Source of the DNA: Flavobacteriales bacterium
Lineage (GTDB): Bacteria; Bacteroidota; Bacteroidia; Flavobacteriales_F; PHOS-HE28
Length of the DNA: 64,000 nucleotides
Direction of reading: 5' to 3'
Assembly (NCBI GenBank): GCA_019638085.1
Contig: JAHBUL010000002.1
Coordinates: 1 to 64,000 of the forward strand
Shown here: positions 7,797 to 36,573 of the stretch, one piece after another
Layout of the letters: each line of letters opens with the position of its first letter
Numbering within the stretch: position 1 is the first letter of the stretch
Made by a program: the position numbers and the translations under genes
Notes under the pieces: generated by a model
Told to the model about the DNA's origin: nothing
Databases searched by the model: none
What the model saw: only the letters and a program-made list of their open reading frames with translations

Positions 7797-8441
7797 CTAC
7801 CAGGTGGGGCGAATCGGATGACCCAGGATCGTCCGTAGTTCGGCGATCATCAATGCAGTGGCTCCCCACACGGTTTCGCCCAGCACATCCCAATACACCA
7901 CCATGTGATCGGAGCCATCAACGTTCATGCGGATCGGCTTACGGAACAGGATGTCGTCCCGTAAAAGCTCAGGTAGCGGCACATCCAGCAATTCATCCAC
8001 TTCGCGTGGGTCGGGCCGAAGACTTCCGAGCTGTGGCGCCCAGGCCACTACGGGGGTTACCAAGGTGTGGCTTGGTGGAATGTGGATGCGTGTGAGTTGG
8101 CCCATGATCTCGAAACCGGAGGTGTTGGCACCGGTCTCCTCCTGGAATTCGCGTATGGCCGTATCGATCAGTGAAGGATCTTCGGCTTCGCGCTTTCCGC
8201 CCGGAAATGCGATCTGCCCGCTATGCACGCCGGGGTAGATCGCACGGCGCATCAAGAGGGTGTGGTCCGTCCCGTTCACGGGGTGGATCAGGATCAATAC
8301 CGCGCTCTCACGAGGAGGTGGCGATAAGGCCAGTACCGCCTCGATAGAGGCCCTTGGATAGCCGCTGAGGGCCATGAATGCGTTATGCCCGGGTAATGGA
8401 GCCTCAAGGGCAGCGCGGAGTTCGGAAGGGGAAAGGAGCAC
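7797..8441 (-). CDS. NUDIX hydrolase, CoA pyrophosphatase (NudL/YeaB-like)
   Basis: The 214-aa product hydrolyses the pyrophosphate bond of coenzyme A or related nucleotides, by family resemblance. The NUDIX helix reads GGKREAEDPSLIDTAIREF followed by QEETG, with the longer spacing typical of the CoA subgroup. The accompanying NuCoA motif precedes it (LLMRRA...HSGQIAFPGG). The start is a GTG at 8441, three bases after the stop of the upstream lipoprotein gene, so it is probably the last gene of the dapB-lepB run. Substrate assignment rests on the motifs alone. Confidence 0.85.
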   Translation of the reverse strand: MLLSPSELRAALEAPLPGHNAFMALSGYPRASIEAVLALSPPPRESAVLILIHPVNGTDHTLLMRRAIYPGVHSGQIAFPGGKREAEDPSLIDTAIREFQEETGANTSGFEIMGQLTRIHIPPSHTLVTPVVAWAPQLGSLRPDPREVDELLDVPLPELLRDDILFRKPIRMNVDGSDHMVVYWDVLGETVWGATALMIAELRTILGHPIRPTW

Positions 8442-18212: not shown

Positions 18213-21017
18213 CTACTGAACGACGAAGCGGTGTACCTCCGAGCTGCTATTGTTCACCACGCGTAACTGGTAATCCCCGCTGGCCAATCCGGAGATGTCC
18301 AATTGGTAGGTCCCAGCGGCTGCCCGTTCGCGCTGTATGACGCGGCCGGAGATGTCCATTACCTCAAGTTCCACAGGGCCTTGCAAAGCACCCATGTCCA
18401 CGGAGAGCGTGTTATGCGCAGGTACCGGATAGACCTTCACACCATCGTTGTTGGTGGCCTCGGCAATGCCCACGGTGGAGATCGCAACATCCACTTGGGT
18501 GCGCGGTCCTTCGCAGGTATAGGTGGTGAAGCCCACTTCCCAATCATAGAAGATCTCGAAATAGGCGGTTGCTCCGCTTCCTCCGTTGGTAGTGGAGACG
18601 ATCGCGCCCACATCACCAAGCGGATACGGGTAGCCGTTGCTCACGTTGTTATAGGTCATGCCGATGTTGTCGCCGAACATCCGCAGGCCGTACGTACCGG
18701 GGGTAATGTCCCAGTTGAGGTCGATCCGGGACTCGCCCGCAGGCAAGTTGAAATTCCCGGAGACGACCGGGGTACCACTGGGCCACTCCACCAGGCCCAC
18801 GATGCGAACGCCTTCGGTTGCGGCCTTTACCAATACACTTTTCAACTGGAAGGGCGAATAGCATTCGAAGATGGGGAAGTAGACGCTATTATTCTCCGCG
18901 TTCGCATTCGTCCCTGGCGATGCCATTCCACCGTACACCGTGTTGTCCACGGGTTGGCTCGCCTCGGCGCACCAGTAGGAGGTGGCCTCGGTAAGCACCG
19001 GTGTGGTCCATGGGCTTTCAAGTCCTACAGGGCTGGTGGCATCGGCAGTGTCATACCAGAGGATGCTGTCCCCTTGGGCCACCAGCGTGGCGGAGGTTCC
19101 CGACTGGATGGTCACGTTCTGGCTGGTTGGTGCAGCTGGCGTTGGCAGGTGTGCAATGGTCACCGGGGCTGAAGTGATGTCCGGACAAATGCCGCTAACC
19201 GTAACGGTATAGTCACCTTCCACAGTGGTAGTAATGCTCTGCGTGGTCTCTCCGGTATTCCACAGGTAGGAGGATGCATCGCTCGAAGTGAGCGTAATCG
19301 GTGTGTTCCAGCAAGATTCCAGTGGCACATCGGAAGTGATCTCCGGGGTGATGTCCGGTGTTTCGATGATGAAAACACTGGCCGCCGCGGAGCAGGGTGT
19401 CTCCGCATCCACGGTCACTTTATGATAGCCCGGCTCACTCACTATGATGGAGGCGGTGACCTCTCCGGTGTTCCACGCATAGCTGCTTCCACCAGTGGCC
19501 GTCAAGGTGATCGATGTACCGCCGGGGCACATGTGCAGACCATCGTTGCTGGTGATGTTCACCACTGGCGCAATGCACGTGCCCTCCACCAAGGTGATCT
19601 CCTGGTCCGCGTCAATGTTCGTGTAGGTGTCCACTTGCCCGCTGGGCCAGCGTACCACCAAGGTCTCCACTGTAGTATGGTCGGCAAGACCGAAATGGCA
19701 CATCGCTGTGTTCGTGAGGCCATAGCTTTCCCCGGCGCGCACTTCGCGGATCTGCGTGCCCAAGGCCGTGGTAAGTGTAACCCGCGCTCCTACGGCATCG
19801 CGGTTGCTTTCCACACCTGCCAAGCGCACGTTCAGCCAGTGGTTGTCGTTACCGTCGTTCAGCCATAGGCGGTCGGGGCGGCCGTAGTGCGGGGTGGTGT
19901 AGCCCGTACCGTAGCTGGACCACACGTCCATGAAGCCGTCGTTGTTCAGGTCCCCGATGGCATAGCTGTGCAGGTTCGACGTATAGGGGAACAAGCCACT
20001 GATGGGAGTGAACGTGCCATCACCGTTGCCCTTGAGGTAGGTGGTGCTACTGCCCGACAACAGGATGTCCAGGTTGCCGTCGTTGTCGAAATCCTCAAAA
20101 TGACTTTGGATGAACATTCCGACAATGTCCGTGTCCGTACCGGGAACCTCGGTGAAGTATCCGTTCCCATCGTTCTCGAAGAATTGCAACTTATGGTCGT
20201 GGTTCCCTACCACCAGGTCCAGATCGCCATCATTGTCCCAGTCACCAAAGTCGGCACACCAGCTTTGATAGCGGATCTGTATACCATGCTCCAAGGCCAG
20301 ATCCGTGTAATTGCCGTTGCCATCATTCACGAACATACGGTTCCAGCGCCGGGGATCGGCCGGGTTGTTCACCCCTTGGCGACACTTGGCGATGTAGAGG
20401 TCCAAGTTGCCATCGTTGTTGAAGTCGGTGAATACGCTACCGTAGTTCCCGCTCATATCGCTCACCGGGTCCGATGTGAAGTCGATCGGTGTACCGAGGT
20501 TCAGGGTACCGTTGCCATCGTTCATCCAGGTCCGTGGCGCCGCATTGTCGTGGCATCCGAACACGTCGAGGTGGCCATCGTTGTCGATATCGCCGATGCT
20601 GATGTTCTGCATGAACATGCTCACGCTCTGCACCGTACCCGCCGTTGAACTCCCCGGTGCCGTAATGCGCCAATAGTGCTGGCCATCTCCATTGCCGCCG
20701 GTGAACACGTCCTTATGGCCGTCGTTGTCCATATCGGCCACGGCCATGCCCCATTGCTGGGCGGTTCCTACGGAACCCACGTTGTAACCGTGGAAGCTGC
20801 CGTCCAGGTTCTGGTAAAGGATGCGGAGGAAGGTGCTGCTGTCCAGCACAGCGATGTCATCCAGTCCATCACCGTTCAGGTCCGAAACGGCCATGCAGTT
20901 CCCGCTATGCGTTGCATAGGGGAGCAGGCCGGGAGTGTTGGTGAAGCTGGGCTGGGCGATCGCGCCGACGGCGAAGAGCAGCGAAGAGCAGGCAGCAAGG
21001 GTAGAGATCTTGTTCAT
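18213..21017 (-). CDS. T9SS-exported FG-GAP/ASPIC (UnbV) repeat protein
   Basis: The product is about 934 aa from the ATG at 21017 (signal peptide MNKISTLAACSSLLFAVGA). It has many FG-GAP/VCBS calcium-binding propeller repeats (DLNGDGLDDI, DMDNDGHKDV, DFDNDGNLDI) to about residue 400. An ASPIC/UnbV domain follows (SNRDAVGARVTLTT, RWPSGQVDTY). Then come Ig-like modules (YAWNTGE, YLWNTGE), a lectin-like domain near 700-840 and a T9SS sorting domain (KVYPVPAHNT to HRFVVQ). It is probably a surface-exposed adhesin-like or carbohydrate-associated protein. The ligand is unknown. Confidence 0.9.
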   Translation of the reverse strand: MNKISTLAACSSLLFAVGAIAQPSFTNTPGLLPYATHSGNCMAVSDLNGDGLDDIAVLDSSTFLRILYQNLDGSFHGYNVGSVGTAQQWGMAVADMDNDGHKDVFTGGNGDGQHYWRITAPGSSTAGTVQSVSMFMQNISIGDIDNDGHLDVFGCHDNAAPRTWMNDGNGTLNLGTPIDFTSDPVSDMSGNYGSVFTDFNNDGNLDLYIAKCRQGVNNPADPRRWNRMFVNDGNGNYTDLALEHGIQIRYQSWCADFGDWDNDGDLDLVVGNHDHKLQFFENDGNGYFTEVPGTDTDIVGMFIQSHFEDFDNDGNLDILLSGSSTTYLKGNGDGTFTPISGLFPYTSNLHSYAIGDLNNDGFMDVWSSYGTGYTTPHYGRPDRLWLNDGNDNHWLNVRLAGVESNRDAVGARVTLTTALGTQIREVRAGESYGLTNTAMCHFGLADHTTVETLVVRWPSGQVDTYTNIDADQEITLVEGTCIAPVVNITSNDGLHMCPGGTSITLTATGGSSYAWNTGEVTASIIVSEPGYHKVTVDAETPCSAAASVFIIETPDITPEITSDVPLESCWNTPITLTSSDASSYLWNTGETTQSITTTVEGDYTVTVSGICPDITSAPVTIAHLPTPAAPTSQNVTIQSGTSATLVAQGDSILWYDTADATSPVGLESPWTTPVLTEATSYWCAEASQPVDNTVYGGMASPGTNANAENNSVYFPIFECYSPFQLKSVLVKAATEGVRIVGLVEWPSGTPVVSGNFNLPAGESRIDLNWDITPGTYGLRMFGDNIGMTYNNVSNGYPYPLGDVGAIVSTTNGGSGATAYFEIFYDWEVGFTTYTCEGPRTQVDVAISTVGIAEATNNDGVKVYPVPAHNTLSVDMGALQGPVELEVMDISGRVIQRERAAAGTYQLDISGLASGDYQLRVVNNSSSEVHRFVVQ

Positions 21018-21024
21018 GGCGAGG

Positions 21025-21053
21025 GAAAGGTATGATTTTGCGAAATGGGACAA
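21025..21053 (-). promoter_or_regulatory. Candidate promoter for the FG-GAP gene
   Basis: On the minus strand TTG (21053-21051), an 18-base spacer and TACCTTTC (21032-21025) match the Bacteroidota consensus with one mismatch in the -7 element. The start codon lies eight bases beyond, so the leader would be very short. Confidence 0.5.
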
Positions 21054-21233: not shown

Positions 21234-23288
21234 TTACTTCACCACCTTCACTGTGCTGCGTGCGTTATCCGAGGTCAAGCGCAGAATGTAGCTGCCGGAA
21301 GCAAGCCCTGCCGTCGGCAAGTTGATGTCGATGCCGCTGTGCGTCACATCCAGGAGGAGTTGGCCGGACAGGCTGAAGAGTTCCGCTCGAACAGGGCCGA
21401 CCGTGCCATGGGTTTGCACGGTGAGCCGGTCGCCGAACGGGACGGGATACACCGAGAAGGCATCGGCGCCTTGGAGTTCTTCCAAGCCGGTAACGATCAC
21501 CGCCGTGCAAATAGAGGTCTGTGAGCAATCCCCATCACTCACGATCACCGCGTAATTGCCGCTTGTTGTCACCTCATAGCTCTGATCCGTGGCACCGTCG
21601 ATAGGGGCGTTCTGATCATTGCAGTCCACCCACTGGTAATGCATCCCTTCCGCTCCGGCCGTGAGCGTGTGGTCAACGAGCGTCACGCTTACATCGAAGT
21701 CGATCGGTGCGGGGTTCGCGTTCACGGCGATCCCATTCCCACCGTTGCAATCCACGGTCACCATGCTGGAAACCGTCTCGTAGCAAGGCGTGGTGATGGT
21801 GTAGCTGATCTCACCGAAAGGAACTCCCGCAAGCATCTCACCGCCGAAGGTGTCACTGGTGACGAAGGTGGTATCGTAGTCGGCACCGTTGGACACATGC
21901 ACCGTGGCGCCTACTATGGCCAGAGGTTCGCCGATGAAGAAGAACAGGTTGTTGGCGGGTTCCGGGTCCTCGAACACCGCGATACCATCGCCGTTATTGC
22001 AGTCCACCGTCACCGTCCCCATTACCGTCTCATAGCAAGGCGTTGTGATGGTATAGCTGATCTCACCGAAGGGCACATCCGCCAGGAGCTCGCCACCGAA
22101 AGTATCGAAGGTCACGAAGGTGGTATCATAGTCTGCACCATTGGTCACCTGCACCGTGGCCCCGATGATCGCCATCGGATCACCGATGTAGAAGAACAGG
22201 TTGTTGGTGGTGGCGGCTGCGGGGTTCGCGATCACCGCGATGCCGTCCCCTTCATTGCAGTCCACTGTCACAGTGCCCGTCACCGTTTCCATGCAAGGCT
22301 TGGTGAGGGTGTAACTGTATTCACCGAAAGGCACATTCTCCAACATCTCACCGCCGAAAGGGTCGCTGGTCTCGAAGCTCTCGTAATAGTCCGCGCCATC
22401 CGTTACCTCCACAGTGACGCCGAGGATCGCAATCGGGTCGCCGATGAAGAAGAACAGGTTGTTGGTGGTGGATGGTTCCGGGTTCGCGATCACCGCGATG
22501 CCGTCCCCTTCGTTGCAGTCCACTGTCACTGTGCCCGTCACGGTCTCCATGCACGGCGTGGTGATCGTGTAGCTGTATTCCCCGAATGGCACGTCCGGCA
22601 GCATCTCACCTCCGAAGGGGTCGCTGGTAACGAAGCTCTCGTTATATTGATCGCCATCGGTGACCTCCACCGTGGAACCCGTGATCGCCATGGGGTCGCC
22701 GATGAAGAAGAACAGGTTGTTCCGCGTCGCTGGTTCCGGGTTTTCCATCACCACGATGCCCTCCCCGTTGTTACAATCCACCGTCACCGTGCCGGAAACG
22801 GTCTGATAGCAGGGTGTGGTAATGGTGTAGGTGTATTCACCAAAGGGTACATCATCGATCATTTCACCACCAAATGGATCGCTGGTGACGAAGCTCACAA
22901 AGAAGTCCGCGCCATCGGTGACCTCCACTGTGGAACCCGTGATCGCCAACGGGTCGCCGATGAAGAAGAACAGGTTGTTCCGGGTCAATGGATCCAATCC
23001 GATGGAACTCGTGGCATCGGCACCGAAGACATTGATCAGGCCGGAGCTCTCGTAGTGGCAAACGGCGCTCACCGAATAGGGGTAGGTATTGTCTTCCAGT
23101 TCGGGGAACACCGCTTCTCCGGCGGCATTGGTGGTATGGGTGTTGCCATCGAGCGTTACGCTCGCATTTTCCACCGGCAGTCCGGTGCTGTTATCCGTTA
23201 CTACGATGGTCGCCGTGTGCTGTGCGAATGCACTTAATGCTGCCAAGCAGATGGAAGCAAGCGTGAGATAGAAGTGCTTCATGGTCAT
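21234..23288 (-). CDS. T9SS-exported protein with five 86-aa tandem repeats
   Basis: The 684-aa product has a signal peptide (to about residue 22) and a carboxypeptidase-regulatory-like domain (about 25-100, STGLPVENASVTLDG). Five near-identical modules then begin at NNLFFFIGDP at residues 104, 190, 276, 362 and 446 (spacing 86, 86, 86, 84). Each contains FGGEML, VPFGE, a TTPC or TKPC cysteine and VDCN. An Ig-like domain (about 530-600) and a T9SS sorting domain (VYPVPFGDRL to VKVVK) end the protein. The paired cysteines in each repeat probably form disulfides. I do not recognise the repeat family. It lies 13 bases after the delta-60 gene and is probably in its operon. Confidence 0.85.
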   Translation of the reverse strand: MTMKHFYLTLASICLAALSAFAQHTATIVVTDNSTGLPVENASVTLDGNTHTTNAAGEAVFPELEDNTYPYSVSAVCHYESSGLINVFGADATSSIGLDPLTRNNLFFFIGDPLAITGSTVEVTDGADFFVSFVTSDPFGGEMIDDVPFGEYTYTITTPCYQTVSGTVTVDCNNGEGIVVMENPEPATRNNLFFFIGDPMAITGSTVEVTDGDQYNESFVTSDPFGGEMLPDVPFGEYSYTITTPCMETVTGTVTVDCNEGDGIAVIANPEPSTTNNLFFFIGDPIAILGVTVEVTDGADYYESFETSDPFGGEMLENVPFGEYSYTLTKPCMETVTGTVTVDCNEGDGIAVIANPAAATTNNLFFYIGDPMAIIGATVQVTNGADYDTTFVTFDTFGGELLADVPFGEISYTITTPCYETVMGTVTVDCNNGDGIAVFEDPEPANNLFFFIGEPLAIVGATVHVSNGADYDTTFVTSDTFGGEMLAGVPFGEISYTITTPCYETVSSMVTVDCNGGNGIAVNANPAPIDFDVSVTLVDHTLTAGAEGMHYQWVDCNDQNAPIDGATDQSYEVTTSGNYAVIVSDGDCSQTSICTAVIVTGLEELQGADAFSVYPVPFGDRLTVQTHGTVGPVRAELFSLSGQLLLDVTHSGIDINLPTAGLASGSYILRLTSDNARSTVKVVK
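21699..22979 (-). repeat. Tandem coding repeats, about 258 bp each, five copies
   Basis: This stretch encodes the five 86-aa modules of the T9SS protein. Copies 2 and 3, and copies 4 and 5, look more alike than other pairs, which suggests stepwise duplication. Confidence 0.8.
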
Positions 23289-23301: not shown

Positions 23302-24897
23302 TTATTGGGTGATGACCAAGGTAGATACGAAGCGCATACCTTGTTGCTGGATGGTCAACTTGTAGGCGCTAGGGGCGATGTCGCCGGGCAACTGGAAGCT
23401 CACGCGCCCTGCCTCGCGAGCAAGTAATGCGGTAGGAGTTCTGAACACCAATCGACCGTCCGTAGCGTACAGGTTGAGCTGCGCATCGGCTGCGATGGGA
23501 GCGTTCGCTTGTACGGTCACGGAGGTACCTGCCGTGGCGGGATCAGGGAACACGAGAGCATCCATGGAAGTGGACCGCTCTGTGATCCCGGTGCTGATGT
23601 CATTCTGGATCCGGGCCACGTAGAAGTAGTTCTCGTTCATCGTAGTGCGGGCCTGGCCGCCAATGAGGATCTTTCCGTCCGCCTGCTCGGCCATCGCGTA
23701 GATCATGGTGTGATGGTCGGGGATCGCCGGTTGCGAGAGGCCGTTGGTACCAAAGCTCGCATCCCTGGTGCCGTCAGCGTGGTACTTCCATACGGCTTGG
23801 TCGAAGGAACCGGGAGGGCCCACACCCGAGGAACCGGCCATCATGATGCTTCCATCGGACTGTATCAACAGGTTCGATGCGAAATCAAAGTTGGCCAGGT
23901 CTTCTGTCACCGTGCCCAGGTTACCGAATGTGGTATCCAACTCGCCCACTGAAGTGAATTTCGCGAGCAATGCACTGTAGTTGTACGTCTGCGTTACGGT
24001 GACCCCACACACCAAGATGGAGCCGTCGGGCGTCAGCTTCAGGTCCTCACCTTCATCATCCACGTTCCCGTGGTTGTACTTCACCACCCCGGCATCGCCG
24101 AAGGTGGGATCCAGGCTACCATCAGCCTCGAAGCGTACCAGCAGCATCACATACCACAGCTCGGAATTCCCGAAGTAGCCCGAAGCCACGATCTTTCCGT
24201 CCGGTTGCACCACCACGCCTTGGAAGGAATTGCCTCCCACTGCCAGCACCGGGATCGATGCGATCCCGTTCAACCCGAAGCTGGTATCGAACACGCCATT
24301 TGCCGAAAAGCGCGCCACGAACGGGCGCCGTACGTAATCCTCGTTAAATGTGCTTCCACATACAATGATGTTCCCCACCGCGTCCAGTGTAATATCATAG
24401 GCGATGTCCTCCGCGTTCGCGGTTACCACGCTTATGCTCTGTGCCAATACACCATTGGTCCCGAAGGAATTATCCAGCGTGCCATCGGCGTTGAGCTGGA
24501 TCAGCAACAGTCTGTATGTCTGGTAGTCCGTGGTGCCACCGGCCAAGAGGATCTTCCCATCATGCGTCAGCACGGCAGAGTAGATGTCGGCCTCGTTGTC
24601 CAGTTCGTACGTGAATACACCGTTGATAGCAAAGTCAGGGTCCGGAGTGCCATCGGGCAGGTAACGGAACACATAGGCACGCGCAGTGTAGGTGGCATCG
24701 AAGCTCATGCCGATCAGCAGGACCTTTTGATCCTCTTGTACAAGGATCTTCTGTGCGTTATCCAGATCGTTCACCGGGGCTATCACATAGCCCGTTCCAA
24801 TGAACGTGGGGTCGAGGGCGCCGGCCTGGGCATGGAGCATGGCCGGTGCCCCAAGCAGGGCGACAGCGGCAACAAGGGAGTACAGTTCAGTTTTCAT
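23302..24897 (-). CDS. T9SS-exported delta-60-repeat beta-propeller protein
   Basis: The 531-aa product has a signal peptide (to about residue 25). A propeller of delta-60 (DUF5122-type) repeats follows, recognisable by recurring G-x-L-D-x-x-F-G-x-N/D-G-V and D-G-K-I-L/V-x-x-G. A C-terminal sorting domain starts VFPDPATAG and ends LVITQ. It is probably displayed at the surface or released. Its ATG overlaps the stop of a 56-codon reading frame upstream as ATGA. Upstream of both lies an array of phased direct repeats. Confidence 0.88.
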   Translation of the reverse strand: MKTELYSLVAAVALLGAPAMLHAQAGALDPTFIGTGYVIAPVNDLDNAQKILVQEDQKVLLIGMSFDATYTARAYVFRYLPDGTPDPDFAINGVFTYELDNEADIYSAVLTHDGKILLAGGTTDYQTYRLLLIQLNADGTLDNSFGTNGVLAQSISVVTANAEDIAYDITLDAVGNIIVCGSTFNEDYVRRPFVARFSANGVFDTSFGLNGIASIPVLAVGGNSFQGVVVQPDGKIVASGYFGNSELWYVMLLVRFEADGSLDPTFGDAGVVKYNHGNVDDEGEDLKLTPDGSILVCGVTVTQTYNYSALLAKFTSVGELDTTFGNLGTVTEDLANFDFASNLLIQSDGSIMMAGSSGVGPPGSFDQAVWKYHADGTRDASFGTNGLSQPAIPDHHTMIYAMAEQADGKILIGGQARTTMNENYFYVARIQNDISTGITERSTSMDALVFPDPATAGTSVTVQANAPIAADAQLNLYATDGRLVFRTPTALLAREAGRVSFQLPGDIAPSAYKLTIQQQGMRFVSTLVITQ

Positions 24898-25064
24898 TCG
24901 GGTGATGGTTTGGTTTCAGGTTCATCGGTGTGTCTTGTCCTCATTTTCCGGAGGCCGTCCAGCAGGTTCTGCCACGCTTCAGCCTCATCCTTCCTTTTCA
25001 GGTGAAGTTGTTCCAAGCGTTCAAGCTCGTCCTCTGGAATTGCTTTTTTATCAGGCGTTGCCAC
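24894..25064 (-). CDS. Small charged helical protein (56 aa), hypothetical
   Basis: From a GTG at 25064 the minus strand reads 56 codons ending in TGA, which overlaps the ATG of the delta-60 gene. The product is highly charged and helical (PEDELERLEQLHLKRKDEAE), with no signal peptide or cysteine, and a Pro/Glu-rich end. The coupling to the next gene and the charged heptad-like spacing suggest it is translated. No ATG is available, since a stop lies upstream in frame. It could be a small cytoplasmic regulator or only a translated leader. Confidence 0.45.
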   Translation of the reverse strand: MATPDKKAIPEDELERLEQLHLKRKDEAEAWQNLLDGLRKMRTRHTDEPETKPSPE

Positions 25065-25124
25065 GGTGTTTTCGATTGATGCGGCGAAGGTGAGGCACCG
25101 AATTGCGTTCCGGTTCGCTCACCT

Positions 25125-25197
25125 GCTTACATCCTCATTACACCGCCGGGAAAGGACCTTACATCTGCCTTACATCGGAAGAAAAAGCCCTTACATC
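25125..25197 (-). promoter_or_regulatory. Phased direct repeats (GATGTAAGG), likely operator
   Basis: On the minus strand, four copies of GATGTAAG begin at 25197, 25176, 25165 and 25133. A degenerate copy (GGTGTAATG) begins at 25144. The spacings are 21, 11, 21 and 11 bases, i.e. whole helical turns. They lie 60-135 bases upstream of the small ORF/delta-60/86-aa-repeat gene group and just past the stop of a TPR-HTH regulator. Such spacing is typical of operators bound by dimers or arrays of response-regulator-type proteins. The binding protein is unknown. Confidence 0.65.
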
Positions 25198-25259
25198 CAC
25201 CATACAGGAATCCATGACTTTCTGAGCCACAGGATTTTATGAAAAACCCTCCGATCGGG

Positions 25260-26966
25260 TCAAATGGAGAGCAGAAAGTCCACCAATTGCATATCCTCAC
25301 CTTCGATCTGCAACTTCTTTCGCAAGCGCGATCGGGCCACGATGATGCTGTTCAGGCTCTGCTGTGTGATGGCCGAAATGTCCTTGGTGCTCATGTTCAG
25401 CCGGAGGAAGGCGCAGAGCTTCCGCTCATTTGGTGTCAGGGTAGGGAAGCGCTCCAGGAGCGTTTGGTAGAAGGTGGAATGGACCCGTGTGAAATGCGCC
25501 TCGAATTCCTTCCAGTTGTGCTCATCCTGGCTGGCCTGAAGGTCGCGGATGATCTCCTGTACGATCCTTTGGTTCTCCTGCCGGAAGGTCGGCCTAGCCT
25601 TCAGGAGCCGCTCCACGATGTGTGCGATCAACTCGTTCTTCTTCAGCAGGAACAAGGCATTGGCGGTGAGCTCGCGCTCCCGATACTCCAGATCTTCCTT
25701 CAGTGCGGCCTGCTCCGCCGCGAGCTTCTCCCCATGGAGGCGAAGCGTTTCCTGCTCCAACGCGCTGTGGCGCACCCGGCCTTGCATCACTTTGTAGAGC
25801 AGGAACGCCGTAAGCGCCAGGAAGAACAGCGCGATGCCCAGCGCGATGTTCCATGTTTGCCGCCGGGCGCTTTCCGCATCTTTCCGCTGGGCCTCCAGCT
25901 CGAATACCTTCTTCTCCTTGTCCCGCCGGAAGCTGTCCTCCAAGCGAGCGATCGTGGTGCGGCTCTCCGCACTGTACAGGCTGTCGTTCAAGGTCTTGAA
26001 TTCACGGAACGCGCCCAAGGCCGAGCGGTATTCCCCCAAGGTATCGTACAGCTGGGCCAGTGATTCCAGCGAGATGACCATGGACCGCGGGCTGCTGATC
26101 GCTCTGCCCAAGGACAGCGCCTGTTCGAAATGGGCCCGTGCCGCCGCGAAGTGGCCGATGAGCGCTTGGTTCTTCCCCAGGTTGTTGAGTACCTGCGCCT
26201 GCCCCCGCACATCACCAATTTGCTTGCGTACCGCCAGCGACCGCAGCAAGTATTCCTCGGCCTTCATGGGCTCGCCCATCTCCATATAGCAGATGCCGAT
26301 GTTGTTGGTCAGTGCACCCTCGTTGCGCCGGTTGTTCAACGGCTGGTTCATGGCCAGTGCCTGCTCGAAGTACGGAAGCGCCAAGGCATGTTCCGACCGC
26401 AAGAGATACACGCCCGCCAGGTTGTTGAAGGCCCGCACCTTGCGCACGTTCACCTCCTCCGTCGGCAGTGTGCCATGCCCGATATCCAGCGTGCGGAGCG
26501 CCGCGTTGGAATGTGCGATGCTCTTCGGCAAGTCACGCAGGTCCATATACAGCGAGCCCAGCTTCAGTTCCAAGTCCGCCCGCGCCAGCAGGAGCGGTAC
26601 CGCCTCCGGCGTTTTCGTCAACGCCCCGTCGAGTTGTACTTGAGCCCGTTGGTAGGCGGCCAAGGCTTGGGGCATTTCGGCCGTGGCCGCGTAAGCATCG
26701 CCCAGCACCATCAACGCACGGGCCTGCTGTTCACCACCGGTCAGCTGCCCCAATTGCTGCTCTAACTGTAGCGCCACCAGCAGCGCGGAATCCGGATCGG
26801 AAGGCAAGAGTTTTGTTGCCAATTCCAGGTCTGCCTCCGCCCGGGCCTCCGCAGGTGCCGTGGTGGCTTGTGGTAGGGCGTTGAACGGCCTCACGAAGGC
26901 CGCAACGCACAGCAACGCGCACAAGAGCGCCCAGGTGCCGGATATGGGTGAGAGGATGGAACGCAT
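25260..26966 (-). CDS. Membrane-anchored TPR regulator with C-terminal HTH
   Basis: The product is about 568 aa from the ATG at 26966 (alternative at 26990). A signal peptide or anchor comes first. TPR repeats fill about residues 45-345 (NNLAGVYLLRSEHALALPYF, NNLGKNQALIGHFAAARAHF). A coiled coil, one membrane helix (about 372-392) and a second coiled coil lead to a C-terminal HTH (LTPNERKLCAFLRLNMSTKDIS, SLNSIIVARSRLRKKL) of LuxR-like type. The layout puts the TPRs in the periplasm and the HTH in the cytoplasm. This matches a known Bacteroidota class of one-piece membrane regulators. The phased repeats just downstream are a possible target. Confidence 0.85.
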   Translation of the reverse strand: MRSILSPISGTWALLCALLCVAAFVRPFNALPQATTAPAEARAEADLELATKLLPSDPDSALLVALQLEQQLGQLTGGEQQARALMVLGDAYAATAEMPQALAAYQRAQVQLDGALTKTPEAVPLLLARADLELKLGSLYMDLRDLPKSIAHSNAALRTLDIGHGTLPTEEVNVRKVRAFNNLAGVYLLRSEHALALPYFEQALAMNQPLNNRRNEGALTNNIGICYMEMGEPMKAEEYLLRSLAVRKQIGDVRGQAQVLNNLGKNQALIGHFAAARAHFEQALSLGRAISSPRSMVISLESLAQLYDTLGEYRSALGAFREFKTLNDSLYSAESRTTIARLEDSFRRDKEKKVFELEAQRKDAESARRQTWNIALGIALFFLALTAFLLYKVMQGRVRHSALEQETLRLHGEKLAAEQAALKEDLEYRERELTANALFLLKKNELIAHIVERLLKARPTFRQENQRIVQEIIRDLQASQDEHNWKEFEAHFTRVHSTFYQTLLERFPTLTPNERKLCAFLRLNMSTKDISAITQQSLNSIIVARSRLRKKLQIEGEDMQLVDFLLSI

Positions 26967-27130
26967 GGTCACGCGGATGAGCTTGGCCATCGCATGGTGG
27001 TGATCAAAACTACGTACAGAGCGGATCCGGAACTTGCACCCGTAGCTCATTCATCACTCCGTCAGGTTTCCGGTGGACACTGGAGAACCAGCGTCCGGCC
27101 GGGTCAAAGGGCAGTTGGCATGGCGAGCCC

Positions 27131-32485: not shown

Positions 32486-32565
32486 GTTGGTTCTTCAGTG
32501 CGTTGGTTCTTCAGTCTGTTGGTTCTTCAGTCTGTTGGATCTTCAGTCTGTTGGTTCTTCGGCCC
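32486..32565. repeat. Tandem array of five 16-bp units
   Basis: Five consecutive units of GTTGGTTCTTCAGTCT type occur, at 32486, 32502, 32518, 32534 and 32550. The first and last are degenerate. The unit length is not a multiple of three, so no coding repeat is meant. It leads directly into a second array. Confidence 0.8.
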
Positions 32566-32580
32566 TTCGAGTACCTCAGG

Positions 32581-32714
32581 GACCGAAGTCTCAAGACAAG
32601 TCTCGGGACCGAAGTCTCAAGACCGAAGTCTCAAGACAAGCCTCAAAACCGAACTCTCAAAACCGAAGTCTCAGGACAAGTCTCGGGACCGAAGCCTCGG
32701 GACCGAAGTCTCGG
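32581..32714. repeat. Tandem array of 14/12-bp units
   Basis: Ten units alternate between a 14-bp form (GACCGAAGTCTCAA or ...CTCGG) and a 12-bp form (GACAAGTCTCGG). The array is bounded on both sides by related elements, CGGCCCTTCGAG followed by CCTCAGGG, of the kind common in intergenic repeats. Confidence 0.8.
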
Positions 32715-32716
32715 GA

Positions 32717-32750
32717 CCATCGGCCCTTCGAGAGCCTCAGGGTCCGATGG
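32717..32750 (-). terminator. Hairpin at the 3' side of the SBBP gene
   Basis: CCATCGG-C-CCT pairs with AGG-GT-CCGATGG around a 12-base loop that contains TTCGAGAGCCTC. It lies 24 bases past the stop of the minus-strand SBBP gene. It may serve as a terminator, but it also resembles the repeat-family element flanking the tandem arrays. Confidence 0.45.
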
Positions 32751-32774: not shown

Positions 32775-35700
32775 CTACTTGATCACACTCAACCGCTGCA
32801 CGGTGCGCTCACCGTTCACCGTAATGCTCACCATATAAACACCGCTGGCGATGTCGCTCGGCAGGTCCAGGATGGCGGTGAACCGGTCTCCGTTGTTACT
32901 GAATTCTTTGCTGAACACCTGCTTGCCATAGATGTCCTGGAGGTCCACCGTGATCTGCTGCTCCGGGTCCTGGATCCCATCGATGTTCAGGTTCACTTGT
33001 CCGCTACGCAGAGGGTTCGGCCACAGGCTCGTAACTCCGTTGGCCTGCACCATGCTGGCCTCAGGGCGGTTGCCGCTGTTGTCGATGGTGATGTTGCAAC
33101 TGCTGGCGCAGAAGCCGCTGTAGAGCCCGTTCACCTTCACGTTGATCTCCACGTTGTAGGTATTGCCGTCCTGTAACAAGGGCGCCACGTTGTTGTTCCA
33201 CTTCAACTGCAGGATGTAGGTGTTGCGGATGAAGGTCTGGTCATAGCCCTCCTGGGTGTTGATGATCCGGAACTGGTACTCCGTTGCACCCACTATCGGC
33301 TTCGCATAGATGAAGCTGTTGTTGGTGTTGAAGGTCCGGATCTCATTGCAGGAGTGGCCGTAGGCCGGCGCTTGGATCAGCTGTGAGCAGGTGACCACCT
33401 GTGGCAGGCTCAGGCCCATCTCGCAACCGCCTCCGAAGTGCGCGGTCGCAATGGGGCCATCGCGATCCGTGCGGACACGTGCGAAGTACTTCACACCAGG
33501 TACCAGCGGATTGGTCACCATGTCCCAGAAGTGGACGTAGTTGTACGGCCGTGCAATACGGCGCATGAAGCCGGCATCGGGATCGGAGAACTCGAACTGG
33601 TAGTTGGAGGCCCCGGTCACCTTATTGGCGTAGACCTTATTACCCAGCTGGTTATTGAAGAGGCCGCACTCGGTGGGGGCAATGTTGGCCGGACCGATGG
33701 GCAGGCAGAAGCTATGCGCGCTTCCATAGTTAGGGTTGAGCGGCGTAGTGGAAGGGGAGTTCGCCCCACCGTCGAAATCATCACGAAGCAGGAGCGCGCC
33801 GGCCCTGGTACGCAATTCCCAACCGCCACCCACAATGCCGTCACCGAAGCTGTCCATCAGGCGGAAGCCGTAGCACGCGGAGGTGGGAGTGCTGCCAAGA
33901 CATAGCGTGTCGGTCACCACTTGGTTGTCCTCGCTTGCTACCGGGCCGCCACTTGCGATCACCACATTGTTCACATCGGTCACCTGCCACGTGAGCTGCT
34001 CCGGGTCGCCGTCCGAATTGATCACCACTACCACCTCGTTTCCACCAGGGCATCCGCTGAGGCTCGACAGTTTGGCCAGAAAGCCGTCGTAGATACCGCC
34101 GAACGTGTTCTGGAATCCACCAGCGCTAATGGCTCCCGTGGAGTTGGTGTAGCCCGCGATGTAGATTTTCCCATTGGCATCCAATGCGCCGGACCGCCCG
34201 GAATCATCGGTAAGGCCGCCGTAGTAACTTCCCCATAAGCGGTCGCCATTGGGATCCAACTTCACCACGAACGCATCCGCGCCACCGCCAAGCGTGTATT
34301 GGTGGGCTGCTTTTGCGATCCGGCTGGTGGAGCTGGTCTGGCCCACCAAATAGATATTGGCTGAAGCATCCGTCACACAGGACCAGCCCAGATCGTTGGC
34401 CGTACCGCCGTAGTAGGTGCCCCATTGACGTGTTCCAGCGGCGTTGAATTTCACAAGGAACGCATCGATCAACCCTTTCCTGGAGTTCTGGAATCCGCCG
34501 GCTGCAATGCCCGTGGAGGATGTGGTCTCCCCGGTCAAGTACACATTCCCCAAGCCGTCCACCGCGCAGCCATGCCCAAGCTCATTGCCCGTGCCACCAT
34601 AGTAGGTGCCCCACTGGCGCACTCCTGAAGTGTTGAACTTCACCAGGAAGCCATCACCGGTGCCGCCCCCGAATGTGCTTTGATGCCCCGAAGAGGCAAT
34701 GGAGCCGGAGGAGTTCGTCTGGCCTGCCAGGTACACATTGCCGCTGCCGTCCACCGCGCAGGCATTGCCGTTCTCCCCGTTCGTGCCGCCATAGTACGTG
34801 CCCCACTGGCGCACCCCTGATGCATCGAATTTCACCAGGAACGCATCGTAGTTCCCGTTGTAGCTGTTCTGGTGGCCTCCGGAGCCAATGCCCGCACTGG
34901 AGTTGGAAGAACCCGCGAGATAGGCATTGCCGTTTCCATCCACTGCACAGCAGGCCCCGAATTCGAAAGTGACCCCGCCATAGTACGTGGCCCATTGCCG
35001 CACCCCCGATGCATTGAACTTCACAAGGAAGGCATCCTGCCCGCCACCGAGCGTGCCCTGATGCCCGCTTGCCGCAATACCAGAAGTGGATTTCGAATAG
35101 CCGGCCAAGTACACGTTGCCGCTGGCATCCACCGCACAGGACGTTCCGCCATCCTCCAGCGTGCCACCATAATAGGTGGCCCATAGCCGTGCTCCACTGG
35201 CGTCGAATTTCACGAGGTACGCATCGTAGTTCCCCCCAAGGGTGTTCTGATGCCCTCCGGAAGCAATGCTGCCCGAGGACTTGGTCTGGCCGGCCAAGTA
35301 CACGTTACCGCTGCCGTCCACCGCAGTGGAATAGGCCGCATCATCCCCGGTGGAGCCGTAGTAGGTGGCCCAGATACGGGCAGGGTCGATGGTGATCGGT
35401 AGGGAACGGTCATAGGTGCTCAGTTCAAAACGCAACAGGTCCCCTTCAAGAACGAAACGGGTCGCCACTTCCGCATCCGCTTGATAGCTCACGGGTGCCG
35501 CTTCGATGAAATGGCCCAGCCGATTGCCGTGGAACAACCTGCCAGCCTTGTCCAGAGCGAGTTCCTCCTGATCCTTGAAACGCAAGCGGATCAGTCCCGG
35601 ATCGGCACCGGGATGCACGATGAAGTCATATTCGATCCCCTTCGCCGTGGTGTACACCTTCCAATCGATGCCGGGGTAGACATCATGGTAGGTCACTTGG

Positions 35701-36209
35701 CCAAAGCGGTGGACGTCCATTGCATCATGACCGTAATAATTGGCGAAACTCCCGCTGCGATCATCCGTGGTGATGCGCGCTTGCCTGCTCGCACCCTCCA
35801 GCACCATGTCCATGCGATAGGTCTCGACCCGCACCTTGGACCGGAGTTCCGCTAGTTGCTCCTGCTTGGCCGGATCTTGGCGGGCCTCCTGGAGCAATTG
35901 GTCATATCCTTCCGGCAGGTGAACCCGGTCGAATTGGTATGCGATACCATTGTCCAGCAAGAAAATGTTCGTGTTACCTTCTGAATACCGGAACTTTACG
36001 AAGGATGCGGGAGCACCGGCCATGGTGGTCACCTGTCCCTTGTTCTCCTCGAATCCAGGTGCATCATAGGTCGCCCTCGGCATTTCGGGCCGCGCCGGAA
36101 GTTCCTCGGAAATTGAACGAGGTGAAGAGGCGCCGACAAATGCCGGGGCTGCCTGGGTGAGTGCCAAGATCGCGAGGATCGCAGAGGCCGGATGGAGCAA
36201 GGTTTTCAT
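32775..36209 (-). CDS. T9SS-exported SBBP-repeat protein (DUF7948 N-terminus)
   Basis: The product is about 1144 aa from the ATG at 36209 (MKTLLHPASAILAILALTQA signal). The N-terminal domain is DUF7948-like (FEENKGQV, FLLDNGIAYQF, EYDFIVHPGADP; about residues 45-290). Seven SBBP beta-propeller repeats follow (each W-x-T/S-YYG and D-x-x-GNVYLAG, about 50 residues apart; about 300-660). Then come a proprotein-like module (GCPGGNEVVVVINSDGDPEQ), fibronectin-like modules and a sorting domain (LWPNPLRSGQV to RLSVIK). It is likely a large surface or extracellular protein. Substrate or partner is unknown. Confidence 0.88.
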   Translation of the reverse strand: MKTLLHPASAILAILALTQAAPAFVGASSPRSISEELPARPEMPRATYDAPGFEENKGQVTTMAGAPASFVKFRYSEGNTNIFLLDNGIAYQFDRVHLPEGYDQLLQEARQDPAKQEQLAELRSKVRVETYRMDMVLEGASRQARITTDDRSGSFANYYGHDAMDVHRFGQVTYHDVYPGIDWKVYTTAKGIEYDFIVHPGADPGLIRLRFKDQEELALDKAGRLFHGNRLGHFIEAAPVSYQADAEVATRFVLEGDLLRFELSTYDRSLPITIDPARIWATYYGSTGDDAAYSTAVDGSGNVYLAGQTKSSGSIASGGHQNTLGGNYDAYLVKFDASGARLWATYYGGTLEDGGTSCAVDASGNVYLAGYSKSTSGIAASGHQGTLGGGQDAFLVKFNASGVRQWATYYGGVTFEFGACCAVDGNGNAYLAGSSNSSAGIGSGGHQNSYNGNYDAFLVKFDASGVRQWGTYYGGTNGENGNACAVDGSGNVYLAGQTNSSGSIASSGHQSTFGGGTGDGFLVKFNTSGVRQWGTYYGGTGNELGHGCAVDGLGNVYLTGETTSSTGIAAGGFQNSRKGLIDAFLVKFNAAGTRQWGTYYGGTANDLGWSCVTDASANIYLVGQTSSTSRIAKAAHQYTLGGGADAFVVKLDPNGDRLWGSYYGGLTDDSGRSGALDANGKIYIAGYTNSTGAISAGGFQNTFGGIYDGFLAKLSSLSGCPGGNEVVVVINSDGDPEQLTWQVTDVNNVVIASGGPVASEDNQVVTDTLCLGSTPTSACYGFRLMDSFGDGIVGGGWELRTRAGALLLRDDFDGGANSPSTTPLNPNYGSAHSFCLPIGPANIAPTECGLFNNQLGNKVYANKVTGASNYQFEFSDPDAGFMRRIARPYNYVHFWDMVTNPLVPGVKYFARVRTDRDGPIATAHFGGGCEMGLSLPQVVTCSQLIQAPAYGHSCNEIRTFNTNNSFIYAKPIVGATEYQFRIINTQEGYDQTFIRNTYILQLKWNNNVAPLLQDGNTYNVEINVKVNGLYSGFCASSCNITIDNSGNRPEASMVQANGVTSLWPNPLRSGQVNLNIDGIQDPEQQITVDLQDIYGKQVFSKEFSNNGDRFTAILDLPSDIASGVYMVSITVNGERTVQRLSVIK

Positions 36210-36573
36210 GTCCGTTGGTTGCTTTGGGTGATCCGAACGATGGTCCGGGATCAAGGCACAAAGGAAGACATGGGCCATCCCTCCTGAAATACCGAGTAAT
36301 GGGTATTTTATAGAGGAGCGCTACGCACGATAACGAGACCATGGTGAACGGTGAACTGATCGAAGCCGGACATCCACTGGCCAATGCCTGCCCTTCACTC
36401 TTGGCCTGTCCTTCTTCACCGGTGCGCAAAATGACCGCAGCGTTGTGAGGCCTGATCGACCGATGCCCGAAATGACAGCCCCTCCGGTTTCCAGCTCAAT
36501 ACAACTTCGAACATTCCCCGATTCCAATGGTTTCTTTGCACCGGCGAGTGGGCCAGACAATCAGCAGGCAAGT
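36210..36573. other. Divergent intergenic region between SBBP gene and MFS gene
   Basis: These 364 bases carry no convincing gene. On the minus strand TTCCTTTG (about 36264-36257) resembles a -7 element for the SBBP gene, but no well-placed TTG was found. No clear promoter for the MFS gene was seen. Confidence 0.35.

Follow-up and report, generated by a model that had tools for sequence, protein, structure and literature searches.

A Flavobacteriales bacterium carries a short set of phased direct repeats between the end of a gene for a membrane-anchored regulator and the start of a run of genes for secreted proteins. What reads these repeats, and to what effect? We analysed computationally the 64,000-nucleotide stretch of DNA that holds them (the window), the genome from which it comes, and related loci in the genus and across the Bacteroidia. 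We hold with good confidence, from comparison of sequences, that the TPR-TM-HTH regulator encoded next door has this array as its operator and would activate the secreted-protein operon as stacked dimers.

The array and its repeating unit

An earlier note on this DNA had described five repeats at spacings of 21-11-21-11, and copies and spacings alike proved exact on the minus strand, where GATGTAAGG-type copies have their 5' ends at 25197, 25176, 25165, 25144 (GGTGTAATG) and 25133 (GATGTAAGC). The count of five, however, had overlooked a sixth, degenerate copy, CCTGTATGG, whose 5' end at 25208 precedes that of the copy at 25197 by 11 bp; we had noted it as a possibility, by stepping outward 11 bp, ahead of the genome search. 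The array comprises six half-sites on the minus strand, spaced 11-21-11-21-11, with TGT cores at 25206, 25195, 25174, 25163, 25142 and 25131. Dimer 1 has the degenerate CCTGTATGG (25200–25208) as its left half and GATGTAAGG (25189–25197) as its right half; dimer 2 has GATGTAAGG in both places (25168–25176 and 25157–25165); and dimer 3 pairs GGTGTAATG (25136–25144) with the promoter-proximal GATGTAAGC (25125–25133).

A genome search for copies paired at 11 bp found matches at this locus only. With up to three mismatches allowed, GATGTAAGG-N2-GATGTAAGG occurs three times in the 3,994,526-bp genome (25189–25208, 25157–25176 and 25125–25144), and the reversed control does not occur in the whole genome. 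Because these matches are only the three pairs of the array, the unit is an 11-bp direct-repeat dimer, present three times with a 32-bp period; the alternation of 11 and 21, correct as to its spacings, is better stated as a series of 11-bp dimers that recur at 32-bp intervals. The core offsets of 11, 32, 43, 64 and 75 bp are close to whole turns of B-DNA, which places the six TGT cores roughly on one face and supports the earlier view of regulatory direct repeats so disposed. A pattern search found GATGTAAG 60 times in the genome, with three or more copies clustered in just one place besides the array, and a six-TGT pattern with the spacings of the array matched once in the window and never in 100 shuffles; a chance origin is excluded.

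A second cluster of at least three GATGTAAG copies (contig C34, 203258–203360) was considered as a further array and rejected, being a GGTAAGGGA simple repeat or minisatellite. This look-alike, built of GGTAAGGGA/GATGTAAGGG units, occupies 8225–8425 of locus L032 (G000:C34, about 203224–203424) and precedes a 161-aa open reading frame that resembles a four-helix-bundle (23S-associated) protein. The window itself has two neighbouring tandem arrays at 32486–32718, one with a 16-bp unit, GTTGGTTCTTCAGTCT, and then one with 14-, 26- and 40-bp units around GGGACCGAAGTCTC; they lie just past the point at which a large gene for a secreted protein (32775–36278, minus strand) ends.

The regulator and the predicted promoter and operon

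The regulator gene (25260–27050, minus strand; 596 aa), annotated from Pfam and NCBIfam, sequence features and structure prediction, lies on the same strand as the array and has its stop codon 51 bp before the array starts. Its product has an N-terminal signal or anchor (residues ~31–58), a TPR region (~67–360), a TM helix (~398–422), a coiled coil and a C-terminal, putatively LuxR-like HTH (~540–596); no kinase, receiver or NTPase domain was found in it. The HTH matches neither GerE nor any other Pfam family, and it aligns weakly with TtrR (E = 0.004) and with DosR, 3clo and 6jqs (E = 0.45–0.73). Structure prediction was confident for the TPR domain and poor for the C-terminus, where a four-helix topology appeared at low confidence, and a PDB fold search with the predicted HTH returned nothing significant. 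Given that poor prediction and the lack of a significant fold, the family call rests on the weak sequence matches, which suggest an HTH of the LuxR/NarL type. The earlier note had been reminded of LytTR sites by the 21-bp spacing and of OmpR/PhoB tandem sites by the 11-bp one. Neither kinship is borne out, as the regulator matches no LytTR, Trans_reg_C (winged-helix) or Response_reg domain in Pfam or NCBIfam; the 21-bp step, unlike a half-site spacing of the LytTR kind, separates one 11-bp dimer from the next, and 11-bp direct repeats are a geometry in common with OmpR/PhoB sites, no more. No further copy of the regulator's HTH is detectable in the genome of the window, and the presence there of three genome-unique dimers right beside an HTH with no detectable paralogue argues for the operator reading.

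With its first base 39 bp beyond the last TGT core, a -7-like element, CACCTTCG (25085–25092, minus strand), is conserved as CACNTTNGCNG in five orthologous loci. The Bacteroidota -7 consensus is TAnnTTTG (PMC7366714); CACCTTCG fits it at just four of the six consensus positions, and its place is taken by CACATTTG in some orthologues and by TAnnTTTG in relatives across the class. If -7 elements begin near -11, which is our own estimate, transcription is predicted to start near 25081, and the last half-site would span roughly -50 to -44, a little ahead of the -33 region. A scan for sigma-70-type promoters and terminators gave a single chance-like promoter, at the regulator's end, and no terminator-like site.

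The GTG start of a small gene (24894–25064, minus strand; 56 aa) lies 28 nt beyond the start of the -7-like box. Its product is charged and probably helical. The small gene is apparently coupled translationally, through an ATGA overlap, to the gene after it, which is the first large one in the predicted operon and encodes a signal-peptide protein with delta-60/DUF5122 beta-propeller repeats (23302–24897, minus strand). After a gap of 13 bp follows a gene, likely of the same operon, for a secreted repeat protein with a T9SS type A C-terminal sorting domain (21234–23288, minus strand), and after another of 180 bp a gene, possibly of the same operon, for an FG-GAP/UnbV protein with a T9SS sorting domain (18213–21053, minus strand). 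This predicted operon and its T9SS-type products agree with the earlier placing of the repeats upstream of a surface-protein operon. In the genus set described below, the small gene was found in the 10 genomes with the regulator and in no others, and its end is alike in the eight orthologous loci examined, including that of the window. The 56-aa protein belongs to no known family and might modulate the regulator or work with the secreted protein. It is conserved around KDE.EAW..LLE.L and is always encoded by the first gene of the operon.

We envisage the regulator as a one-component sensor of the inner membrane, whose periplasmic TPR domain would sense a signal and whose cytoplasmic, putatively LuxR-like HTHs would bind side by side, two to each 11-bp dimer. 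The dimers would stack cooperatively, one every three helical turns, and the proximal one, just upstream of the -33 region, would help RNA polymerase to open a weak promoter, thereby turning on expression of the small gene together with that of the secreted proteins, some of them exported by the T9SS.

That this would be activation, not repression, we infer from position only. Position alone is no proof of activation, and the array starts only those 51 bp past the regulator's stop codon; the adjacent regulator could bind it as a repressor, or chiefly control its own gene. We consider this unlikely, since every half-site precedes the -7 element, with no overlap of either that element or the predicted start, since a poor consensus match at -7 is what one expects of an activated promoter, and since the regulator's own start, which autoregulation would concern, is about 1.8 kb from the array.

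Conservation within the genus

The genus set comprised 45 genomes, and searches at family and order level gave the identical 45. The regulator is present in 10 of them, including that of the window, to whose copy the other nine are 60–66% identical. According to the earlier note, absence of the pattern from related genomes would speak against it; in most orthologous loci we found the array in register behind the regulator; in L048 the first dimer is gone, and L049 and L051 are 12 bp shorter. An alignment of the five best loci has its invariant columns in the half-sites, at 12, 23, 44, 55, 76 and 87 (again 11-21-11-21-11), and in CACNTTNGCNG (columns 126–136). The 7-mers of the half-sites are invariant at 31 of 42 positions in these loci, the linkers at 4 of 75 (p = 7e-15), and this footprint of invariant half-sites between drifting linkers supports the operator reading. 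In L048, where part of the array has thus been deleted naturally, a GTTCTCAGTTGTCG tandem repeat fills the gap left by the first dimer.

The footprint also bears on two quite different views of the repeats. Simple GGTAAGGGA repeats elsewhere in the genome could be taken to suggest a decaying minisatellite, or repeats brought together by chance, but half-sites that are kept at 60–66% protein identity, with linkers that have drifted, refute this, and with the array not reproduced in shuffles the idea is scarcely credible. It is very improbable, too, that the repeats work as RNA in a 5' leader, be it riboswitch-like or protein-binding. All copies are indeed on the operon's coding strand, but it is their helical-turn spacing that is conserved, not the linkers; no stable fold (z = 0.31) and no match to an Rfam family were found; and the conserved -7-like element is downstream of the array, which would place the array outside that transcript.

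A profile of the array gave clear matches (E 2e-27 to 0.019) in exactly the 10 genomes with the regulator and directly behind it, five of these genomes having been outside the model of the profile. The sole other match in this range, a marginal one (E = 0.017), was at G034:C66:340–411, in a genome without the regulator. The restriction of the array to regulator genomes, always just behind the regulator, favours the operator reading and upholds the tie to the neighbouring membrane-anchored TPR-HTH protein that had been proposed at the outset, and block inheritance of the locus could account for part of this co-occurrence. At L079 a different secreted, T9SS-tailed protein is encoded downstream, from which it follows that the array travels with the regulator and not with one cargo.

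Two genomes of the genus have a paralogous regulator, 34–35% identical in its C-terminus. Right after its stop codon both carry GTCCACCGATCGTCCAC, with GTCCAC half-sites 11 bp apart, and a -7-like element, TAGGTTGCG, 38 bp from the second GTCCAC; the distance is 39 bp when counted from the base before GTCCAC, which is equivalent to the T of TGT. The paralogue has other half-site letters and an unchanged 11-bp/39-bp geometry, a combination that again supports the operator reading.

Survey of the class Bacteroidia

A profile of the C-terminus matched 177 of 395 sampled Bacteroidia genomes, which thus have homologous HTH domains. From the better-scoring homologues we took a sample of 40 TPR-type loci and then 20 fresh ones, 60 in all. 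Since the composite rule of a TGT pair followed by a -7 element was drawn from the window and the first loci, the set of 40 is only partly independent of it, and other spacings and offsets served as controls.

Imperfect 9-mer direct repeats in the 260 bp behind the regulators of the 40 loci peak at 11, 32 and 33 bp. TGT pairs 11 bp apart occur there in 19 of the 40 loci, as against one in front of the regulator and two further down, and pairs at other spacings average about 5.5. Elements that agree with TAnnTTTG at five or more of its six positions stand, relative to the second TGT, seven times at +39, four times at +40 and at most once at any other offset. The 20 fresh loci on their own support the rule weakly: 11-bp TGT pairs, found in five, do not exceed some other spacings, and the -7 elements of these pairs are at +38 (one) and +39 (two).

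The strict composite, an 11-bp TGT pair with a -7 element at +39 or +40, occurs in 15 of the 60 loci, as against an average of 0.25, and never more than 2, over 200 shuffles; the background was none in 89 kb of own-genome loci and one in 104 kb of regulator coding sequence. By pair spacing, in downstream flanks only, composites number 13 loci at 11 bp, four at 32 bp and zero to two at every other spacing. The -7 offsets in these flanks include, besides 39–40, a second group at 70–72 that corresponds to one additional 32-bp dimer upstream. A test free of TGT was anchored on 14 perfect TAnnTTTG elements; the octamer 38–41 bp upstream of them is repeated at 11 bp in up to seven of the 14 loci, and at other spacings in at most one. 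The 11-bp pairs with a -7 element at +39/40 across the class, seen also in this test, are further support for the operator reading. Among genes behind composites, 11 of 12 start with an apparent signal peptide, lipoprotein and TonB-receptor types included. The three quarters of loci without a strict composite may have half-sites without TGT or divergent or remote targets, or the rule may not be valid for all subfamilies; proteins of ~960 aa with a related C-terminus had the composite in none of 18 loci. Some regulators also have 11-bp TGT pairs in front of them, on the opposite strand (upstream flanks of L202, L210, L213 and L219), as expected of sites that serve divergently transcribed targets.

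Among loci, the five bases that follow TGT differ and track the recognition helix; for example, ISPDSVKTARYRLRKK goes with CTACC, NIS.KSV.MNRYR with AGGG/AGAT and GISTDSLRVSRYRLRKK with TGCCT. Similarity of helices correlates with that of half-sites (Mantel r = 0.39, p = 0.0002), a value inflated by shared ancestry, and still does so when close pairs are removed (r = 0.18, p = 0.013). That half-site letters correlate with the recognition helix adds to the case for the operator reading, which is weakened in turn by the four-of-six match at -7, by the occurrence of the composite in a quarter of loci and by the drop in this correlation without close pairs.

These comparisons bear as well on whether the array is bound by some other DNA-binding protein, for instance a response regulator from an unlinked gene, with the TPR-HTH gene as a bystander. 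The genome holds many other regulators, and OmpR-type domains such as those of SARPs use 11-bp direct repeats too. Against such a binder, which we think quite unlikely, stand the strict co-occurrence of the array with the adjacent regulator, the paralogue with its different half-site and same geometry, the variation of half-sites with the recognition helix, and the finding of the rule behind homologous regulators across the class.

Returning to the adjacent regulator as the binder, we think it probable that one grammar holds for the class, in which TPR-HTH regulators of Bacteroidia activate the adjoining secreted or outer-membrane gene through TGT half-sites 11 bp apart (optionally repeated at 32–33 bp), with the last TGT 39–40 bp before the -7 element and the five bases after TGT set by the recognition helix. 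Were these bases so set, one could read off from sequence the operators of a great many orphan regulators.

Relation to known regulators

MalT of Escherichia coli is a cytoplasmic protein, and MalT boxes are arranged as direct repeats. It has a TPR-like sensor and forms multimers that bind the boxes cooperatively and recruit RNA polymerase (PMC4381067). The TPR-like sensor and, as proposed here, the cooperative multimers that recruit RNA polymerase are the features in common; MalT, however, is a STAND ATPase, whereas in the regulator of the window we found a TM helix but no NTPase domain. SARP regulators (AfsR) bind 11/22-bp direct repeats as an activating side-by-side dimer, with the 3' repeat 8 bp from the -10 element (PMC10936776). 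They share with the present case direct repeats at a distance of one helical turn or two and activation by a side-by-side dimer, here a proposed one, and differ in their OmpR-type DNA-binding domain (PMC10936776) and in those 8 bp to -10, as against about 32 bp from half-site to -7 here. We regard MalT and the SARPs as the closest working analogies, and SusR-like regulators and hybrid two-component systems (HTCS) as the closest in kind.

In HTCS of Bacteroidota, AraC-type HTHs of phospho-signalling proteins bind direct repeats ~21 bp apart on average (PMC3878776). Direct repeats on one face, upstream of surface-protein operons, are common to both; HTCS differ as phospho-signalling proteins with AraC-type HTHs, and no kinase or receiver domain was found in the window's regulator. 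That regulator also aligns over most of its length, residues 108–586, with NCBIfam NF053779 (the BT3442 family; E = 6e-14), yet at 51.6 bits against a cut-off of 940 it is not a member; no operator for the BT3442 family is described in PMC2954219. For SusR-like regulators of Bacteroides (SusR, BT3705), the predicted motifs consist of a pair of direct-repeat sites whose centres are separated by 67 or 77 bp (PMC3878776), a spacing not seen here, where distances between cores reach 64 and 75 bp at most. What is shared is a membrane regulator with a C-terminal HTH of obscure family, confined to Bacteroidota, and direct repeats on one DNA face, together with periplasmic sensing and activation of nearby outer-membrane or secreted systems, both of them proposed for the present regulator; the difference, by the published description, lies in the 11-bp pairs every 32 bp and the fixed 39 bp to the -7 element. 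In the searchable literature we found only the SusR and HTCS work, with no operator of TPR-HTH regulators described and no 11-bp dimer ruler at a fixed 39–40 bp from -7. The best reading would be that the array extends the direct-repeat logic known from these Bacteroidota membrane regulators (SusR/HTCS) with a new arrangement.

A fixed grammar (11, 32 and 39–40 bp, with a helix-read half-site) would make the targets of such regulators predictable, and for the regulator in the genome of the window the pattern search predicts a single target locus. It also offers a model, open to test, for the way in which an activator tethered to the membrane makes contact with RNA polymerase in a phylum whose promoters are unusual, and suggests activator-controlled circuits for engineering in Bacteroidota.

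At five loci (L188, L191, L195, L208 and L215), regulators of the GISTDSLRVSRYR or a similar type go with TGTTGCC/TGTTAAC half-sites, often as two dimers at a 32-bp distance, and the genes downstream resemble those of TonB receptors; these regulators may be SusR-like proteins.
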